Shown one piece after another: positions 5,509-26,308 of a stretch of 32,511 bases of DNA (position 1 is the stretch's first letter; every line of letters begins with the position of its first letter). The notes below the pieces were generated by a model that made no database searches, was not told the origin of the DNA, and saw only the letters and a list, made by a program, of their open reading frames with translations. The position numbers were made by a program, and so were the translations under genes. This stretch comes from a virus. The stretch covers positions 1 to 32,511 of the IMG/VR virus record IMGVR_UViG_3300031857_000813, one strand, 5' to 3'.

Positions 5509-6192
5509 ATGATTACACATAGACTACCTGAAACAAGAGGGCATTTCAACTTTGGTTGGATAGATAGTTATCGTTCATTCAGCAACAATACATACAACGA
5601 CCCTAATTATATCCACTATAGCGACTTAGAGGTTATTAATGATGATAAAGTTAAACCACATAACTTTACTCCTATTCATCAACATATGGATATGGAAATC
5701 ATAGGTTATGTAATTAAAGGTCCTTGCTTTCATAATGATAATTTGACCAATGTACTAGAAGTGCCTAGTGGTGCTGTACAAAGAATGAGTACGGGTACAG
5801 GCATTTGGCATTGTGAAGGTAATAATTCAGATGAAGAAATTCATTATTTGCAAATATGGATGCGTCCAAATAGACATAACTTTCAACCTCAATATGATGT
5901 TTGGATGTTTGACAGAGAAGAAAAGTTAGATAATTTCTGTCCTATTGCAAGTGATAAAGGTCCATTAATAATTCAAAGTGATGTTAAGTTAAGTGCAGGT
6001 ATTTTTACTAAGGATCATATAGAACAGTTAAATTCTAATCGTAAGTATTATCTTTATATAATAAACGGTTCTGCTTATATTAATGGTATTGAAGCATATA
6101 CAGGTTCTGGATTTAGTTTTGAAAATGAAACTGAATTAGTCATCACTAATCCAGAAGAAGAACCTGAGATATTACTCTTTAACTTGCGTTAA
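5509..6192 (+). CDS. Pirin-family bicupin protein (YhhW/quercetinase-like)
   Basis: 227 residues with the pirin signature. The start MITHRLPETRGHFNFGWID corresponds to the conserved 'RGHF-xx-GW-L/ID' entry of the family. The cupin metal ligands are all present as H57, H59, H101 and E103, in PIHQHMDMEIIGYV and RMSTGTGIWHCE. The family binds Fe(II) or another metal in the N-terminal cupin; some bacterial members oxidise quercetin-like flavonoids, others bind transcription or metabolic proteins. The second cupin (about 130-227) lacks obvious ligands, as is usual. Full length for the family. It follows a terminator, has no ribosome binding site, and its 3' end overlaps the convergent Nudix gene by 21 bases. 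It looks like an acquired host-type accessory gene (a moron); the substrate is unknown. Confidence 0.88.
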   Translation: MITHRLPETRGHFNFGWIDSYRSFSNNTYNDPNYIHYSDLEVINDDKVKPHNFTPIHQHMDMEIIGYVIKGPCFHNDNLTNVLEVPSGAVQRMSTGTGIWHCEGNNSDEEIHYLQIWMRPNRHNFQPQYDVWMFDREEKLDNFCPIASDKGPLIIQSDVKLSAGIFTKDHIEQLNSNRKYYLYIINGSAYINGIEAYTGSGFSFENETELVITNPEEEPEILLFNLR

Positions 6193-12608: not shown

Positions 12609-13244
12609 ATGCTAGTAAGCGTTACTGGATTCATCGGATCAGGCAAAGATACTATTGCCGACTACCTCATCACAGAACACGGATTCAAAAAAGAAAGTTG
12701 GGCTGGCAGTCTTAAAGACGCAGTATCACACATCTTTGGTTGGGAACGTGAATTACTTGAAGGCACTACAAAATATAGCCGTGAATGGCGTGAACAAGTT
12801 GATCTTTGGTGGAGTGAGCGATTAGGAATTGAGAAACTTAGTCCACGCTGGGTCTTACAACAGTGGGGAACTGAAGTAGGCCGTCAAAGCTTTCATAACG
12901 ATATTTGGATAGCAAGTTTAGAAAATAAATTGCGTCAAAGTAGGGATGATATTGTTATTACTGACACACGTTTTGCTAATGAAATGGAAGCTATTAAAAG
13001 ACTTGGTGGCATAACAATTAGAGTACATCGTGGACCTAAACCTGACTGGTATGATGATGCTATATCAGTTAATAAAGGACCTAGGCATATTGGTTGGTCA
13101 CTAAGCAAAGATAGACTTGGGAAATTAGGAATACACCCTAGCGAATATAGCAGTGTAGGACTAGATTTTGATCATGAAATACATAATGACAGCACAATTG
13201 ACGATTTATTTGACTGTGTTAAACACATGCTCAATTTGCCTTAA
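12609..13244 (+). CDS. 1: Deoxynucleoside monophosphate kinase (T4 gp1-like)
   Basis: 211 residues from the ATG at 12609, chosen over an in-frame ATG at 12591 because AAGGAG (12598-12603) lies 5 bases before it and the upstream ATG sits directly after the -10 box. The P-loop is GFIGSGKDT at residues 7-15, as in T4 gp1 (GVKRSGKDT). Further matches are LSPRWVLQQWGTEVGRQ, the DTRFANEMEAIKRLGG segment (T4 DTRQDHEMDAARAMGA) and the terminal IHNDSTIDDLF (T4 ITNDGSLEELF). The enzyme phosphorylates dNMPs to dNDPs in the cytoplasm to feed phage DNA synthesis. It ends three bases inside a convergent HNH-like gene. A nucleotide-metabolism gene placed between gp13 and gp18. Confidence 0.88.
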   Translation: MLVSVTGFIGSGKDTIADYLITEHGFKKESWAGSLKDAVSHIFGWERELLEGTTKYSREWREQVDLWWSERLGIEKLSPRWVLQQWGTEVGRQSFHNDIWIASLENKLRQSRDDIVITDTRFANEMEAIKRLGGITIRVHRGPKPDWYDDAISVNKGPRHIGWSLSKDRLGKLGIHPSEYSSVGLDFDHEIHNDSTIDDLFDCVKHMLNLP

Positions 13245-13585
13245 TCGACTTCTAAATCCCCACGTTTCCAAATAGTTTCTCTACGTTTGACTATTTCCAC
13301 ACAATTTAAACATACTGTACGTAGATTAAATAGGTCTACGTTGTTTAAATTTCCGTCAATGTGAAATACTAATAACTGACTATCGTAGAGTTTTTTAAAC
13401 CCGCATATATCACATGTGGGTTTTTTCTTGTACCCTACTAGCTTCCATTTGGGCTGCTGCGGAGTTAGCTTTTTATTCTTTCTCCTGCATTCCTCACACT
13501 TGCTTCTGTAATGTCTGACACCATCCCTGTAATAATTTGCAGCACATGGGTTTTTATTACAAACTTTACAAATAGGTCTTTTCAT
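13241..13585 (-). CDS. HNH-like zinc-binding protein
   Basis: 114 residues from the ATG at 13585; a TTG at 13603 would add six residues but would lie upstream of the promoter. There are four CxxC pairs: C6/C9, C30/C33, C58/C61 and C92/C95. The second half, CDICGF...VFHIDGN...NLRTVCLNC, follows the HNH fold (H75, D77, N79, N87), but the usual His after the last CxxC is replaced (CLNCVE), so nuclease activity is uncertain. Small HNH-like proteins of this type are common in aquatic phages as homing-type or free-standing nucleases. It is divergent from the sheath gene, convergent with dNMP kinase (4-base overlap), and has a perfect TATAAATA 5 bases before its ATG. Confidence 0.7.
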   Translation of the reverse strand: MKRPICKVCNKNPCAANYYRDGVRHYRSKCEECRRKNKKLTPQQPKWKLVGYKKKPTCDICGFKKLYDSQLLVFHIDGNLNNVDLFNLRTVCLNCVEIVKRRETIWKRGDLEVD

Positions 13586-13590
13586 ATTCT

Positions 13591-13598
13591 TATTTATA
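13591..13598 (-). promoter_or_regulatory. Perfect T4 late octamer TATAAATA
   Basis: Minus strand, 8 of 8 match to the T4 late consensus, ending 5 bases before the HNH-like ATG at 13585. T4 geometry puts the start on the A of the ATG. A 7-bp hairpin (13602-13608 / 13613-13619, AACTCTT / AAGAGTT) lies just upstream. Confidence 0.6.
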
Positions 13599-13646
13599 GC
13601 CAACTCTTCCCAAAGAGTTCACAGAACCGTAAATTCTAGAAAATTT

Positions 13647-19491: not shown

Positions 19492-19929
19492 ATGGCTAAG
19501 TGGGCTCAAGGCATATATGAAGTGAAGAATCCAGATAAGTATGTAGGTAATCATAAACCTAAATACAGATCAGGATGGGAATTAACTTTCATGATGTTTT
19601 GTGATAACAACAATAGTGTTATCAAATGGGCAAGTGAATCAATAAGAATACCCTATCGCAATCCTCTCACAGGAAAGCAAACAATCTATGTCCCTGACTT
19701 CTTTATTCTATATGAAAATAAGTTCGGACAAAAACACGCTGAAGTCGTAGAAATCAAACCCAAAAAACAAAGTCTTATTGAAAGTAAAACAGCAAGTGCA
19801 AGAGATCGGGCTACCGTAGCAGTCAATCATGCAAAATGGCAGGCAGCAACAGCATATTGCAAATCCCAAGGTCTTACATTTAGAGTGATAAATGAGGACG
19901 CTCTATTTTATAATGGTAAGAAAAAGTAA
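19492..19929 (+). CDS. 4: Head completion protein gp4-like (PD-(D/E)xK nuclease fold)
   Basis: 145 residues, close to T4 gp4 (150) and strongly similar to my memory of it: MAKWAQGIYEVKNPDKYVGN, then KPKYRSGWELTFMMFCDN, WASESIRIPYRNPLTGKQ and IYVPDFFILYENK. Nuclease-type residues are visible: E30, D69 (VPDFF) and E87-x-K89 (VEIKPK), matching the PD-(D/E)xK arrangement. In T4, gp4 acts after packaging to finish the head so that tails can attach; gp4-defective heads fail to join tails. Start is one base after the upstream stop (TAAAATG). It is followed by a late promoter overlapping its stop codon. Confidence 0.9.
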   Translation: MAKWAQGIYEVKNPDKYVGNHKPKYRSGWELTFMMFCDNNNSVIKWASESIRIPYRNPLTGKQTIYVPDFFILYENKFGQKHAEVVEIKPKKQSLIESKTASARDRATVAVNHAKWQAATAYCKSQGLTFRVINEDALFYNGKKK

Positions 19930-19956: not shown

Positions 19957-20448
19957 ATGACTAAAAAACTTAGCGAATTATTTGACCTCCCCATTGATGA
20001 AATCTCTCATGCTGATGATATCATTCCTGTTCCTGAAGATGTCACTACCCAAGCTTACAACAACCTAGAAAAAATTGAAAATGCACTACCTCAGGTTCGT
20101 GGATTAGAAGCCAGTGACACTGAAATAGATGAATTAGCTGAATTAGCTAAAAATAGTTATAGTGATTTAATGGAGCTTGGTATGCAGGTGGATAGTAGAT
20201 TTGCTGCTGAGATTTTTGGTACTGCAGGGACAATGCTAGGACATGCAATTACAGCCAAAACAGCTAAAGTCAACAAGAAGATAAAAATGATTGAATTGCA
20301 GTTAAAGAAAGCAGCATTAGACGCTAAATTGAATGAAAAGACTAAAGAAATAGAGAATATTCCTCAGGGAAATGGGTCAACACTGATAGATCGTAACGAA
20401 TTACTGAAATCTTTAATCGCAAGCAAAAACGGAAATAATGATAAATAA
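19957..20448 (+). CDS. 16: Terminase small subunit, gp16-like
   Basis: 163 residues against 164 in T4 gp16. An acidic N-terminus (~1-30) is followed by the helical core typical of T4-type small terminases: TQAYNNLEKIENALPQVRGL, NSYSDLMELGMQVDSRFAAE, EIFGTAGTMLGHAI and a helix to residue ~135, with a polar C-terminus. The protein forms rings that recognise phage DNA and stimulate the gp17 motor-nuclease. The large subunit is not in this window; in T4 it is the next gene, but here a different gene follows. The late promoter of that gene overlaps the stop of gp16. Assigned on helical pattern, length and neighbourhood, so moderately sure. Confidence 0.68.
   Translation: MTKKLSELFDLPIDEISHADDIIPVPEDVTTQAYNNLEKIENALPQVRGLEASDTEIDELAELAKNSYSDLMELGMQVDSRFAAEIFGTAGTMLGHAITAKTAKVNKKIKMIELQLKKAALDAKLNEKTKEIENIPQGNGSTLIDRNELLKSLIASKNGNNDK
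20440..20447 (+). promoter_or_regulatory. Late promoter GATAAATA
   Basis: GATAAATA overlapping the gp16 stop codon, 19 bases before the ATG at 20467, with a TAGGAAT Shine-Dalgarno-like site between. Confidence 0.5.
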
Positions 20449-20466
20449 TACTATAGGAATTGAACC

Positions 20467-21069
20467 ATGAAAACCTTTCGCCAATATTTAGTAGAAAGTG
20501 TACGTACATACAAGTACACACTTAAGATAGCAGGAGATGTCGATAATAAGTTTTTAGACTTGTTGCGCATGAACCTTAAGAAGTTTGATCCAGTAAAAAT
20601 TGAGGATCCTAAAACTACCCCCATTCAAAAAGATCCATATGGATTTCCTGACGTACACAACGAATCAGTGACGATCATTAAATGTGAGTTTAAGTATCCA
20701 GCTACAGAACCGATGATTCAGCAAATGGTTCAATTAATGGGAAAAAATGTTAATCAGGTTCGTCTAATCACAACAGAATATAACGATAGCATAAATCACG
20801 AAGTAGAGCAATATGCTAACGAAGCAAGTCACAGTCCATTATTATTGCATACTGAATTAGAAGATGACGGTAAAGAAGCAAGTAAAGAGTATGCAAATCA
20901 GTATCTAGATAAAGTTGTACCTAAAAAGCCAACATTTGATTATCAGTATGCTGCTACAAAAACACCTGACAGCCCTAACAAAACAAAAGAAGGCATACAA
21001 ACAAAGAGTCCAATGACTAACATGACTAGACAGCCTAAACCAAAAACAGGAGCTAGTTTTAACAAATGA
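20467..21069 (+). CDS. Putative prohead internal/core protein with capsid-targeting-like N-terminus
   Basis: 200 residues. The start MKTFRQYLVES closely resembles the capsid-targeting sequence of T4 internal proteins (MKTYQEFIAEA in IPII and IPIII). It includes a gp21-protease-type site L8-V9-E10 / S11 (consensus L/I-x-E). The body (~12-110) alternates strands and helices (YKYTLKIAG, SVTIIKCEFKYPATEPM, QVRLITTEYN) and could be a ferredoxin-like unit; the C-terminal ~60 residues are polar, Lys/Pro/Thr-rich and probably disordered. It overlaps the next start (ATGA) and is late-expressed. Inferred role: a protein packaged in the head or part of the scaffold core. Direct function is unknown. Confidence 0.6.
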   Translation: MKTFRQYLVESVRTYKYTLKIAGDVDNKFLDLLRMNLKKFDPVKIEDPKTTPIQKDPYGFPDVHNESVTIIKCEFKYPATEPMIQQMVQLMGKNVNQVRLITTEYNDSINHEVEQYANEASHSPLLLHTELEDDGKEASKEYANQYLDKVVPKKPTFDYQYAATKTPDSPNKTKEGIQTKSPMTNMTRQPKPKTGASFNK

Positions 21070-21281
21070 TTGATTTTACAACAAGCCAATTAACTTGGAT
21101 AGTAGTCGGAGCTTGTAGCTTAGGTGGAGGCGGCTATTTAACAATGACCTCTACTGTAGGTGATTTAGATAAAAAGATTGAAGTATCTAATGCTAGAGCA
21201 GAAGCAATGAATGAAAAACTTTCATCACTAAAACAGCAATTAGATAGAATAGAAAATAAGATTGATTCAGGTAGAAAATGA
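21066..21281 (+). CDS. Small single-span membrane protein, possible holin or spanin-type
   Basis: 71 residues: one hydrophobic Gly-rich segment at about residues 9-27 (LTWIVVGACSLGGGGYLTM), then a charged coiled-coil-like helix at 33-66 (DLDKKIEVSNARAEAMNEKL). No lipobox or cleavable signal. Small phage membrane proteins of this form are often annotated as holins, but the single span and long cytoplasmic or periplasmic helix also fit a membrane anchor for another protein. It overlaps the upstream gene (ATGA) and the downstream giant gene (4 bases), so the three are translationally coupled. The endolysin lies 7 kb away. Confidence 0.7.
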   Translation: MIDFTTSQLTWIVVGACSLGGGGYLTMTSTVGDLDKKIEVSNARAEAMNEKLSSLKQQLDRIENKIDSGRK

Positions 21282-24200
21282 AATCAAAAGACATTACTAA
21301 CAAATTAACCGAATGGCGTGATCCAATGGATATGTTAAATCGTGGCCGTTCAGGTCCTGAAATGGGACCGTCTGGAGGTTTTGGAGGTTATGCAGGCGGA
21401 CGAAGTGATATTTTTGGATTAGGCGGAAGAGGTGGAGCACCGCAACAAATTGACATAGGCTTAGGTGGGGCCGGTGGTAAGAGTATTAGCAGAAGTGCTG
21501 CAAAAAAAGAATTTGGTAAAGAACAAACACGTACAGCAACAATGTCTCCGGCACAAAAACAGGCTGAAAAAGAAGTAAGAAGTGGACAATATACTCCTTC
21601 TCCAGCACCTAAAAAAGGTGAAGCACCTCCTGCTAAGCGTGAAGAACCTGCTTTGTCTACCCAACAAAGGAATTATAAAGAATTAGATCGTCCTGCTGTT
21701 CAAAGAAAAGCAGAGGCAGATAAGACAGCAAAAGATGCTGCAGCAAAAGATAGAAGTTCTCAACCGCATTATACAATAGATCCAAAAACAGGTAAACCAA
21801 TTCCTGCTAATGTGCAAGCACAATTACAACAAAAATTACAAGGTAAAGGATTTAAAGATCCTGAACCAGGAAGCATAAGTGGATTTAGACCTAAAAGTGA
21901 TAAAGGTGCTACTGATACAAGGGCACAACTTCAACAAAAATTACAAGGTAAGGGGTTTAAAGAACCAGCAAAAGTAGAACCAGCAAAAGTAGAACCAGCA
22001 AAAGTAGAACCAGCAAAGGCAGAACCTAACCCACTATTTCCAGGAGATCGTGCATCCCGTCCTCCTAAGGAAAAATTTGATAAAAAATCTGCAGCACAAA
22101 GTGTTGGGTTACATGCTGCATTATTAGCTGCGATAGCTAATATGACTGCAGACGAGAAAAAATCAGCAGCAGAAAAATCAACAAGTGCGCAGCAAGGAAA
22201 TTCAAATACTCCTGTTACTATTGATTTTATAGATCCTGGATCAGAAAAAGCTGCCGACGCACCCGCAACAACAATGCCAGATTCTACCACAACAACCCAA
22301 ACAGCATCCAACTCAGGTGATAAAACATCATCGCCACCAGTTGTTGTAACAGCTAAAGAAAAGCCAATCCCACAAAAGAATCAACCAGAGAAGGTAGAAG
22401 ATCCAACTAGAAAAGCTGATCAACCGAAAAAAGATTATGATATTGCAGTACAAGATCCTGACATTGTAACAACAAACTCAGAAAAACCAAATGCCGAAGC
22501 AGATACAGTTAATGACAAAGAAAGTGCTGCAACAACACAAGCAGCGATAGAGCCTAGTAAAGATGAAAAAAATGAAGAAGATGTACTAGAAAAACTTAGA
22601 AAATTATTAGGTCTCGATAAGAATGCAGAACAACAGGCTAAAACTGAACCCGCTAAAGAACCAGCCAAAGAACCTGAAGCTAAAAAGGATGATCCTAAGC
22701 CAGAACCTGAAAAGGTCGCACAAGATGGGCCAGGTAAAGCCGATGCAGAAAAAGGTGATGCTGGCAAAAGAGGTGATGAAAAAGAGGCCTTTCCTAAATT
22801 TAAAAGAGATGAAAAAACAGAAAAACCTGAAGATACAGAAAAAAAAGGTGATGACGAAATCACTAGAAAAACTGATAGTCCTGTAAATAAGGGTCCTGCA
22901 GCAACGGGAACAGATAACGCTATAAATTGGGCTCCTCCCCCACCAGAAAGAAAATACGAACCTGACGAGAGAGCAAATAGAGACCGTGCTAATCTTATCA
23001 GAAGGCAACAGCAGCAAAACAGAGAGGCCGAGCTTCAAGATATAAAAAGAATGACCCCTGATGTGAATGAATCACTCAATCATATTTTAGGTTTAGCAAA
23101 TATTACAAAGAAAGAAATTGTGGAGTCAACTACTATGAACTTAGACATGAGACAAATGATTGCTTTATTAGATGAAGCAACTAAAATGGCCGATATCAAA
23201 GGCAAAAAGCATACTGGTAAGTATGGCAAAGAATACGACACCGATGAAGAAGGTGACGACAAGCCAAAAGCTAAGGAAAAAAACAAGCGCGGTAGGCAAG
23301 AAAGTGAAGCAACTAAAGATGCTAAAAAATGGCAGGGCGCAGATGCAGCTGGTGCTGCAATTATTGGTGGCAAAGCTCCATCTAGTGCAGCAAAAGGCAC
23401 AAAGCATGGTTTCACCGCTGGTGAAAAAGCAGCTAAAAAAGCAGAAAAGGCTAAGTCTAAAAAGAATCTTAAAGATTGGTTTGACTCTACTGAAGAAGCC
23501 ATACTAGAAGGTGCTAAGGTTGATCGTATGGTAAAACATATTGCAAAATCAGAACGTGATTTAGGCAAAGGCAAAAAGGAAGCAGAAAATATTGCATGGG
23601 CAACTGCTAATAAGCGTGGATACCTAGACAATAAGAATAAGAAAAAAGTTAAAGAAGAATCATATACAGTAAACAAAAAACCTGTCAGCAAAGGTGAATA
23701 TGATGCCACTATGAAAGCAGCAGGAAAATCACCTAGTCCACCAGAGAAAGTTAAAGAAGAACTAAAAGGTGATCAAAAGAACCTAGACGTAGCTGCACCA
23801 AAAGGTAAATTAGATGCTAAAGATTTTGCTGCATTAAGAGCAAAGAAAAAAGTCAGCGAGGCAGAAAAAGCTAAAAAAGATTATGATGGTGATGGTAAAG
23901 TTGAATCACCAAAAGATGAAGTATGGGGGAGCCGCATGAAGGCAGCTAAAAAAGCAGGCAAGTTAAAAGAAGGTGTTAACTTTGCTGAGATGATGAAAGA
24001 AACACAAATGAGCATTGAAGAAATGCTTGAAGGTTTACAACAAGAGATTGCTGAATTTAAAGCTACAGGCCACATGGGTGATAACTTACGTGATGCGTTA
24101 GAAATTCATCGTTACAAAGGTAAAGATAAATTAATGGGCGAATCTCCTATGATGTCACAAACTGTTGTAGAAGAACCATTAGAAGAAAATCCATTTACTT

Positions 24201-26308
24201 ATGCAGCAAGACAGGCCAAAGCATCAGGTGATGATAGCTTTAAATTAGGCGGAGAAACTTTTCCTGTTAAGGAAGCAATGAGCAGACATGCTAAAGGTTA
24301 TGCAAAGTTTGGTCCAGAAGGAATGAAAACTCTTGCACGTTTGGGACAACAAGGTGCTAGTGAAAAGACAATGGACGCTGCTAGAAAAGAGTTTAACAAA
24401 TACGATAATGATGAAAAGGTAGATGAAGACGGACCTGGCGCAGCAAGAATGTACGGTGACGATGAAAAATCAGATTTTGACGTTGTAGACTCAATGAAAA
24501 AATTTGCGAATAAAGGAATAGATGCATGGAATGATTACGAGCAAAGTAAAAAAGATGCATGGGACTCACGTAGATGGAATGATGGTTCAGGAGGAAAACC
24601 TGGTAGTAGTGGGTATAATCCGTCAAAACTACCTAGATTCGACACAAAAGACGACAATTATCCAGATGAATTAAAGCGCGGAATTAAATCTGCTTCAACT
24701 ACTCCTTCACCAAAAAGAGAGCCAGAATCTGATATTTTTGATCGTGAAAAACCATATAGAGATAAAACAGGTAAAATGGTTACACCACCAAAAGGTTTAA
24801 GCATCAGCGAACCATATGGCAAAAAAGGGTATCCAGATGCAGTAGATGTAAATGCACCATCAAAAAATAAGGATCGTAAACCTATGAAAGAAAATTTTGA
24901 CTTTTCACTATGGGACAGCCAATTAGAAAAAATGATAAACGAAAGTTTAACTGTTACTACGACTCAAGGTGATAATGATACAGAAAATAGTGTTAGTATT
25001 ACAGCGAGTGGGGAACAAGCCGGTGAAATAATGGCTTTATTAAGAAATGCAGGAATGGATTCAATGTCAGGTCCTGCAGTAAATGAACCAGTTGTTGTAG
25101 AACCAGAACAACTGTTATCAGCATATGGAGTTCCAATGTCACAAGATGACAATTCAGGTTCAGGGCATGATGATATTGTTTCATTGATGCAAAAGCTAAG
25201 TGGTATGTCAGATCATGGACAAGAAGGTATAGAAATGTCAAATGATTCGGAACACGAAGAACATGACGACCAAAATTCACACGATTATGAAGATGAGGGA
25301 AGTGAAGATGAAAACGAGGAGAAGGATGAGGCTGAAGAAGGCTCTGATGAAGAAGATAATAATGATGAAGAAAAAGTAAATGAAGAACGTGAAATATCGA
25401 CTTCAGTAGACGATGAAGGCCGTATTCATTACATGAGAGATCCAAAAAATCCTAGTCCACAAAAATCATCTGTAGATGATAGAGGTAGATTACAATTTAA
25501 AGATACTGATAGACCAAATTCTTCATCGGTTGATGATCAAGATCGTATTCATTACATGAGAGATCCTAAAAATCCATCACCGCAGCGTTCATCAGTAGAC
25601 GACAAGGGTCGCCTGCAATTTAAAGATACTGACAGACCACAGCAATCCTCAGTAGATGATAAAGGCAGACTGCAATTTAAAGGTGACACAGCAGGTCCAC
25701 AGCGTTCATCAGTAGATGATAAAGGTAGATTACAGTATAAAGGACCTTCTGCTGGGGCTCAACAATCGTCAGTTGATGATCAGGGTCGTCTACGTTTTGT
25801 TAAAGAATATGATGAAGAAATGACCAATGAAGGTATGTGTCAAGAATGTGGTATGTATGAAGGTGAATGTGGGCATAGAATGAATGAAGCTGAAGGTACA
25901 TACGCTGATCCTAAAGGACACATTTTTTCATCAAACGGAAAAACAGAATACGTACCAGCTCCGGGTTATCGTGTGAGAACAACTTTTACTCCAGGTAGAG
26001 ATGATCCTACTACAACTTTTGTAAAAGCTGACTCTACTTCAAAGGAAACATCAAAAGATCAAAATTCAAAGGAAACATCAAAAGATCAAAAAAATGAAAA
26101 TCTTGAGAGCGCCCGCCCTATTGAAGAAGAATTAGCGAATGGAGCTGATGATACTACGATGCAAGATATTAAGTATTTGATACGAACACTTGCAGGTGGA
26201 CTCAATAAAGAAAAGCGTGATCAAACAACATTACCTCACACTGCTGTAAAAGTTACAGAAAGTAGAGAAATGCTTAACGAATGGAAAAAACTAAGTGGTA
26301 TAAAATAA
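21278..26308 (+). CDS. Giant low-complexity charged phage protein, possibly scaffold/core-like
   Basis: 1676 residues, mostly predicted disordered by eye. In order: Gly-rich start (~20-65); Lys/Pro/Ala/Glu-rich region with PAKVE repeats (230-249); a short hydrophobic helix (LHAALLAAIANM, ~278-290); KE/DP-rich region to ~550; more structured units with NESLNHILGLANI (~597), DRMVKHIAKSERDL and KKEAENIAWATANKRG (~750-785), an EF-hand-like DYDGDGKVESPKDE (868-881), and FAEMMKETQMSIEEML; a very acidic stretch (~1325-1372); seven SSVDD repeats (1375-1509); a CxxC-x6-C-x-H knuckle (1521-1533); and a conserved-looking end (MQDIKYLIRTLAGGL, MLNEWKKLSG). Possible gp21-type sites: LTE12, IVE616, ILE744, INE1222. 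Follows a capsid-targeting-like protein and ends at a strong terminator. Function unknown. Confidence 0.85.
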   Translation: MKSKDITNKLTEWRDPMDMLNRGRSGPEMGPSGGFGGYAGGRSDIFGLGGRGGAPQQIDIGLGGAGGKSISRSAAKKEFGKEQTRTATMSPAQKQAEKEVRSGQYTPSPAPKKGEAPPAKREEPALSTQQRNYKELDRPAVQRKAEADKTAKDAAAKDRSSQPHYTIDPKTGKPIPANVQAQLQQKLQGKGFKDPEPGSISGFRPKSDKGATDTRAQLQQKLQGKGFKEPAKVEPAKVEPAKVEPAKAEPNPLFPGDRASRPPKEKFDKKSAAQSVGLHAALLAAIANMTADEKKSAAEKSTSAQQGNSNTPVTIDFIDPGSEKAADAPATTMPDSTTTTQTASNSGDKTSSPPVVVTAKEKPIPQKNQPEKVEDPTRKADQPKKDYDIAVQDPDIVTTNSEKPNAEADTVNDKESAATTQAAIEPSKDEKNEEDVLEKLRKLLGLDKNAEQQAKTEPAKEPAKEPEAKKDDPKPEPEKVAQDGPGKADAEKGDAGKRGDEKEAFPKFKRDEKTEKPEDTEKKGDDEITRKTDSPVNKGPAATGTDNAINWAPPPPERKYEPDERANRDRANLIRRQQQQNREAELQDIKRMTPDVNESLNHILGLANITKKEIVESTTMNLDMRQMIALLDEATKMADIKGKKHTGKYGKEYDTDEEGDDKPKAKEKNKRGRQESEATKDAKKWQGADAAGAAIIGGKAPSSAAKGTKHGFTAGEKAAKKAEKAKSKKNLKDWFDSTEEAILEGAKVDRMVKHIAKSERDLGKGKKEAENIAWATANKRGYLDNKNKKKVKEESYTVNKKPVSKGEYDATMKAAGKSPSPPEKVKEELKGDQKNLDVAAPKGKLDAKDFAALRAKKKVSEAEKAKKDYDGDGKVESPKDEVWGSRMKAAKKAGKLKEGVNFAEMMKETQMSIEEMLEGLQQEIAEFKATGHMGDNLRDALEIHRYKGKDKLMGESPMMSQTVVEEPLEENPFTYAARQAKASGDDSFKLGGETFPVKEAMSRHAKGYAKFGPEGMKTLARLGQQGASEKTMDAARKEFNKYDNDEKVDEDGPGAARMYGDDEKSDFDVVDSMKKFANKGIDAWNDYEQSKKDAWDSRRWNDGSGGKPGSSGYNPSKLPRFDTKDDNYPDELKRGIKSASTTPSPKREPESDIFDREKPYRDKTGKMVTPPKGLSISEPYGKKGYPDAVDVNAPSKNKDRKPMKENFDFSLWDSQLEKMINESLTVTTTQGDNDTENSVSITASGEQAGEIMALLRNAGMDSMSGPAVNEPVVVEPEQLLSAYGVPMSQDDNSGSGHDDIVSLMQKLSGMSDHGQEGIEMSNDSEHEEHDDQNSHDYEDEGSEDENEEKDEAEEGSDEEDNNDEEKVNEEREISTSVDDEGRIHYMRDPKNPSPQKSSVDDRGRLQFKDTDRPNSSSVDDQDRIHYMRDPKNPSPQRSSVDDKGRLQFKDTDRPQQSSVDDKGRLQFKGDTAGPQRSSVDDKGRLQYKGPSAGAQQSSVDDQGRLRFVKEYDEEMTNEGMCQECGMYEGECGHRMNEAEGTYADPKGHIFSSNGKTEYVPAPGYRVRTTFTPGRDDPTTTFVKADSTSKETSKDQNSKETSKDQKNENLESARPIEEELANGADDTTMQDIKYLIRTLAGGLNKEKRDQTTLPHTAVKVTESREMLNEWKKLSGIK
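21820..21963 (+). repeat. Direct repeat encoding AQLQQKLQGKGFK
   Basis: Two copies of a ~40-base unit (about 21820-21859 and 21925-21963) encode AQLQQKLQGKGFK followed by D or E and P; few base differences, so a recent duplication. Confidence 0.7.
21965..22024 (+). repeat. Four 15-base tandem repeats (PAKVE)
   Basis: Unit ccagcaaaagtagaa repeated three times identically with a fourth diverged copy (ccagcaaaggcagaa), encoding PAKVE x3 and PAKAE, residues 230-249 of the giant protein. Confidence 0.9.
25400..25803 (+). repeat. Seven tandem SSVDD-x-GRL repeats
   Basis: Residues 1375-1509 of the giant protein. Two alternating forms occur: SVDDxGRIHYMRDPKNPSPQ (copies 1 and 3) and SSVDDKGRLQFKDTDRP (copies 2, 4 and variants 5-7). 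Period is 19-22 residues. DNA copies differ at synonymous positions, so the repeat is kept at protein level. Confidence 0.9.
26039..26092 (+). repeat. Two 27-base tandem repeats (SKETSKDQN)
   Basis: tcaaaggaaacatcaaaaga-type unit repeated twice with one base difference at the end, encoding SKETSKDQN and SKETSKDQK. Confidence 0.9.

Follow-up and report, generated by a model that had tools for sequence, protein, structure and literature searches.

Genomic context of the leader gene

The DNA analysed here, referred to as the window, is a virus fragment of 32,511 bases from IMG/VR, and its origin is read as a large myovirus of the T4 superfamily. Within a cluster of neck, tail-tube and head-completion genes (Table 1), it encodes a 200-residue protein that begins with MKTFRQYLVES. 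The open reading frame is preceded by the ribosome-binding sequence aggaatt, and the same ATG is used by the relatives examined. The gene order of the window is that of gp291 to gp282 in Pseudomonas phage PA5oct. The succession of a gp4-like gene, a PHROG 16202 gene and the leader gene is shared with GAP32, CBB, RaK2, 121Q, BF and PA5oct, and the GAP32 neighbour of the family gene matches PHROG 16202 with an E-value of 1.5e-100. A gp4-like gene lies ahead of the family gene, normally one gene apart, in most lineages examined, among them PA5oct, the RaK2-like phages and many of the environmental clades whose flanks were long enough. Ribonucleotide reductase genes separate the two in Atu_ph07 and Phosso, and in some environmental clades a simple gp4 motif gave no match upstream of the family gene.

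Table 1. Features of the window discussed in the text (single positions as reported).
Feature	Position	Strand	Evidence or remark
Head-tail adaptor	11788		
dNMP kinase	12591		
Tail sheath	13708		
Tail tube	17327		
Second tube-like protein	17964		
118-aa protein	19134		
gp4-like head closure / head completion protein, TnsA-like fold	19492..19929	+	phrog_218 E 1e-42; PF08722 E 2e-21
163-aa PHROG 16202 protein, directly upstream of the leader gene	19957..20448	+	phrog_16202 E 1.5e-16
Leader gene, 200-aa virion-protein family	20467..21069	+	distant link to PHROG 14802 via orthologues
Leader MKTFRQYLVES	20467..20499	+	candidate capsid-targeting helix and candidate cleavage site L8-V9-E10 / S11
S6-like (ferredoxin-type) domain, residues 14-107 of the 200-aa protein	20506..20787	+	AlphaFold2 model
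71-aa membrane/coil protein	21066-21281	+	
1676-aa low-complexity protein	21278..26308	+	scaffold-like C-terminal tail

Several other genes of the window are worth recording. A pirin/quercetinase-type bicupin gene at 5509-6192 on the plus strand (PF02678 E 2e-19, PF17954 E 1.5e-10) is unusual for a phage structural region. On the minus strand, in the gap between the dNMP kinase and tail sheath genes, a Cys-rich, HNH-like open reading frame of 120 codons (13241-13603) has no Pfam match; it is also kept in relatives (L100 2489-2830, L086 2677-3021). The 71-residue protein encoded just after the leader gene combines one hydrophobic stretch with a coiled coil and weakly matches an Rz-like spanin (E 1.4e-4). 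Its gene is found in only part of the clade, and elsewhere the leader gene and the gene for the large protein are nearly adjacent.

The leader and the T4 capsid-targeting sequence

Work on T4 has shown that the first 10 residues of internal protein IPIII alone are needed for its incorporation (review, PMC9026906). Mutants of IPIII attribute targeting mainly to residues 4 and 7 and processing to residues 8 and 10, and Asp at position 10 blocks processing and not targeting (PMC9026906). Read from NC_000866, the N-termini of ipII and ipIII are MKTYQEFIAEA and that of ipI is MKTFKEF. The initial annotation had drawn a parallel between the window leader and the IPII/IPIII form, and this parallel holds in exact register: K2, F/Y4, F/Y7, L/I8, E10 and a small residue at 11 coincide. 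The window leader fits both the targeting half (F4, Y7) and the processing half (L8-V9-E10-S11) of the T4 sequence.

The likeness was measured against 2392 ATG-initiated N-termini, taken from open reading frames of at least 60 codons in the window, PA5oct, part of T4 and two relatives. The pattern M[KR]x[FYL]xx[FY][LI]xE, which was composed after the leader was known, though on the T4 register, matched five of them against 0.06 expected for independent sites; the five are T4 ipII, T4 ipIII and three members of the window family. By itself, L/I-x-E near an N-terminus is weak evidence, since 48 of 343 PA5oct non-virion reading frames, mechanically called, have it; among the virion proteins of that phage it is not enriched (8/81).

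What places the likeness above chance is its conservation. The family is large, with 66 loci in a first scan and at least 591 matching stretches in a profile scan. In an alignment of 72 relatives, M1, Y7, E10 and S11 are invariant (72/72 for E10 and S11) and position 9 is free. Among the relatives, AGY as well as TCN codons encode Ser11, so the constraint acts on the amino acid and not on the DNA. Because one search (A4) had been queried with leader residues, which biases its leaders at positions 1-8, two body-only searches (A5 and A6) were run with alignments stripped of the first 11 residues, and the leader was then read upstream of each match. All 109 distinct relatives with a complete 11-residue leader (61/61 and 48/48) keep it, with L/I8-x-E10 followed by S, N or G, as in MKNFQQYLAES and MKTFKEYLTEN. 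With the start Met counted, the leader is the best-conserved 11-residue stretch of the protein, and its identity to the window protein exceeds that of residues 12-107 in 118 of 118 comparisons.

Among isolated phages, orthologues were reached by chaining, with PA5oct, Atu_ph07 and Phosso first, followed by GAP32, CBB, RaK2, 121Q, BF, XaC1 and a Vibrio phage. The targeting positions hold in all lineages read (F/L at 4, Y/I/F/V at 7), and position 8 is likewise hydrophobic or aromatic. Position 10 is less uniform: E is present in the window clade, Atu_ph07, GAP32, CBB, 121Q and the Vibrio phage, and is replaced by D in RaK2 and BF, by A in PA5oct and XaC1, and by S in Phosso. At this site CBB and 121Q read L-T-E, and PA5oct reads Y-D-A. 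RaK2-like leaders take the forms MNKLQKILTEL/TDL.

Protease and capsid cleavage sites

A protease of the Peptidase_S77 (gp21) family was found in all 13 genomes searched, namely 12 relatives and T4; within the window, which is a fragment, no gp21-type protease was seen. L-x-E precedes a conserved SATAG-like stretch in the capsid proteins of PA5oct, the Vibrio phage, BF, GAP32, CBB, XaC1, 121Q, Atu_ph07, Phosso and RaK2. The corresponding capsid motif of two close relatives is LAE/S, and L8-V9-E10/S11 of the leader matches this inferred L-x-E/S site. Consistent with cleavage, the RaK2 capsid protein migrates lower than predicted (PMC3622015).

These observations refine the earlier proposal that L8-V9-E10/S11 is a gp21-type site. 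The match to the capsid proteins of close relatives supports it for the window lineage; cleavage of the leader is not a family-wide property, because five isolate lineages have lost E10 while their capsid proteins keep L-x-E. As the capsid sites retain this motif where the leader has lost it, the specificity of the protease is apparently unchanged in those phages.

Other short leaders were noted as well. In one relative (L149, 11091-11858 and 11865-15512), the genes that follow the family gene start with the distinct leaders MKITEIITEAE and MKIKDINIYEAV, again with I-x-E followed by Ala, in the manner of T4 gp24 (MAKINELLRES). The PA5oct (NC_071039) virion proteins gp246, gp247, gp333 and gp105 (loci L076, L074 and L073), whose short leaders include VKIKDILVES, MFLKDVKITES, MKINDIITEG and VRLNEINLIET, are candidates for gp21-type processing.

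Virion presence and predicted structure

Isolate orthologues match PHROG 14802, a 'virion structural protein' of the head and packaging category, with E-values of 7e-8 for PA5oct, 6e-10 for Atu_ph07 and 4e-16 for Phosso. The window protein itself matched no PHROG family directly, and it is tied to this group through PA5oct (E 1e-6). The PA5oct orthologue, gp282, is marked as detected by ESI-MS/MS. In CBB, both gene position and the PHROG match identify CBB_210 as the orthologue; 13 unique peptides, covering 60.5% of it, were recovered from virions (PMC5259590). In the MIJ3 and RaK2 papers, supplements aside, peptide data for an orthologue were not found, and the literature search returned no paper linking 'capsid targeting' with RaK2. 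The PA5oct and CBB orthologues make it very probable that the window protein, too, is packaged in virions.

The AlphaFold2 model (72 sequences, mean pLDDT 67.9) places a separate helix at residues 4-12 and a beta-alpha-beta domain from residue 14 to about 107, the S6-like portion having a pLDDT of about 70-85. A cut after E10, as judged from this model, would spare the S6-like domain. Among solved structures, ribosomal protein S6 folds come closest, with middling Z-scores of about 8-9; this arrangement is common, and the fold search gave an S6-like/ferredoxin fold without a relative of informative function. A sequence search of solved structures returned only chance-level matches. A weak BFVD match to an 'Ip7' protein (rank 18, TM 0.25) was set aside and not counted as evidence, because such folds are common.

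The large downstream protein

The 1676-residue protein encoded shortly downstream ends in EWKKLSGIK. Such a tail occurs in 7 of 1574 open reading frames examined: in three phages on the gp22-like scaffold, in three on the large protein that follows the family gene, and once on a Phosso protein near the terminase. Scaffold tails of relatives read DLRRLAGL and ELRRLAGIK. Most relatives of the large protein start with M[DN]F[RK]xxL and carry L/I-S/N-E inside about the first 17 residues. The large protein may belong to the prohead core or be an internal protein of the head, encoded together with the leader gene. A tentative extension, rather doubtful at present, is that the two genes make up a module for the prohead core or inner body, conserved among non-phiKZ large phages, in which one protein carries a T4-type head-entry tag and the other an L/I-x-E leader together with a tail otherwise found almost only on gp22-like scaffolds. 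The processing half of the tag would have been lost several times, leaving natural separation-of-function variants.

A probable head-targeting leader on a core virion protein

On balance, and with moderate confidence, the leader is regarded as a head-targeting sequence resembling that of T4, probably processed in the window lineage and carried by a conserved core virion protein. This protein probably aids the building of the particle. In the mechanism proposed, an amphipathic N-terminal helix, hydrophobic at positions 4, 7 and 8, would dock the protein during head assembly, either into the prohead core or at the vertex on the portal side. In the window lineage, a gp21-type protease would then cut after E10, so that the mature protein would begin at S11, just ahead of the S6-like domain, and remain in the virion. 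The RaK2-like and PA5oct-like phages and a few further lineages have kept the targeting half and lost the processing residue, so that in them the protein is probably packaged uncut. Its proposed place is inside the head; mass spectrometry of the orthologues speaks for presence in the virion and not for location, and the protein could reside in the neck, because its gene lies within the neck, tail-tube and head-completion cluster.

Alternative explanations

The alternative that survives best, although it is judged unlikely, holds that the leader is a permanent assembly helix, never cleaved, which binds a fixed partner such as the gp4-like protein, the product of the neighbouring PHROG 16202 gene, or the portal or neck. 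The likeness to T4 would then reflect a similar helix and no head-entry tag. The PA5oct, RaK2, BF, XaC1 and Phosso members, which keep the helix without the cleavage motif, are consistent with such a role, as are the presence of the PA5oct form among virion proteins and a gene order that recurrently places the family beside gp4 and its PHROG 16202 neighbour. However, a purely structural helix hardly explains why E10 and a small residue at 11 are kept around a free position 9 in so many phages, or why they match the cleavage site of the capsid proteins in the same lineages.

A second alternative, which is very improbable, follows the initial annotation more closely and takes the protein for a genuine internal protein of the T4 type that is packed into the head, enters the host with the DNA and acts against host defences. 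Of that proposal, packaging in the virion is very probable; membership of the T4 internal proteins is not supported. The T4-like leader, the presence of orthologues in virions and the slightly basic character of the window form and one close relative (pI 8.4 and 8.7) are in keeping with it. Against this, the isolate orthologues are acidic (pI 4.5-5.4), and the internal proteins of T4 are basic accessory proteins with poor conservation (PMC9026906), whereas the family gene is core, syntenic and single copy. A profile of 72 members found no T4 homologue at E-values up to 10, and the S6-like fold offers no informative relative.

The leader is also not reused within the genome, although a search for further genes sharing it had been suggested as a check. 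Pattern scans of 14 relatives, three jumbo isolates, T4 and 20 further large records gave essentially one match per genome, on the family gene, with very few others, at about the level of reversed-pattern controls, and no reuse by other genes was found. As a control, the scan of T4 returned ipII, ipIII and the early gene 61.1. The latter (NC_000866 18966-19130, minus strand; locus L168 667-831) encodes a hypothetical protein of 54 residues that starts with MKTFKEFIKE, a form resembling the capsid-targeting sequence outside the internal-protein genes; since an early gene has such a leader, the leader is no proof of a head location. Delivery into the host and counter-restriction found no support, and an anti-restriction function was rejected because no feature of any kind speaks for it.

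Least probable of all is an ordinary N-terminus of a structural domain, resembling the targeting sequence by coincidence and common descent of one helix, a view that accords with the presence of the leader on a single gene and the frequency of L/I-x-E near N-termini but runs against the rarity of the register among the 2392 N-termini, the greater conservation of leader than body across subfamilies and the separation of the leader helix from the folded domain in the model.

Comparison with known systems

If the preferred reading of a T4-like head-targeting leader is correct, it would assign a role to a widespread, uncharacterised virion protein and provide natural variants that separate targeting from cutting. 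Capsid targeting in T4 has so far been known from accessory cargo proteins. The same tag as the most conserved segment of a core virion protein, across hundreds of large phages from the environment, would point to an old element of head assembly that cargo proteins use as well.

Several known systems bear on this reading. The window leader shares with the capsid-targeting sequence of T4 IPII/IPIII its length, register, hydrophobic positions 4, 7 and 8, E10 and small residue at 11, and the setting of a gp21-type protease and L-x-E capsid sites, as seen in relatives of the window virus. In T4, several proteins share the leader, whereas in the window family it occurs on one conserved core protein per genome and its processing residue has been lost in several lineages; targeting and cleavage in the family are, moreover, predicted. 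Relative to IPI-III as proteins, the window family has the leader and virion orthologues in common, but it differs in having no homology of the body, a conserved, syntenic, single-copy gene, isolate forms that are not basic and no sign of an anti-restriction function. The leader of T4 gp24 is similar, a short helix at the N-terminus with L/I-x-E and then a small residue behind it, although gp24 is a vertex capsid protein and the window protein has another fold. A further counterpart is PHROG 14802 of RaK2, GAP32, CBB and 121Q: the window protein has diverged too far to match its profile directly and RaK2-like leaders are of another form, but the order of head completion gene, PHROG 16202 gene and family gene is the same, and the PA5oct, Atu_ph07 and Phosso orthologues link the two.
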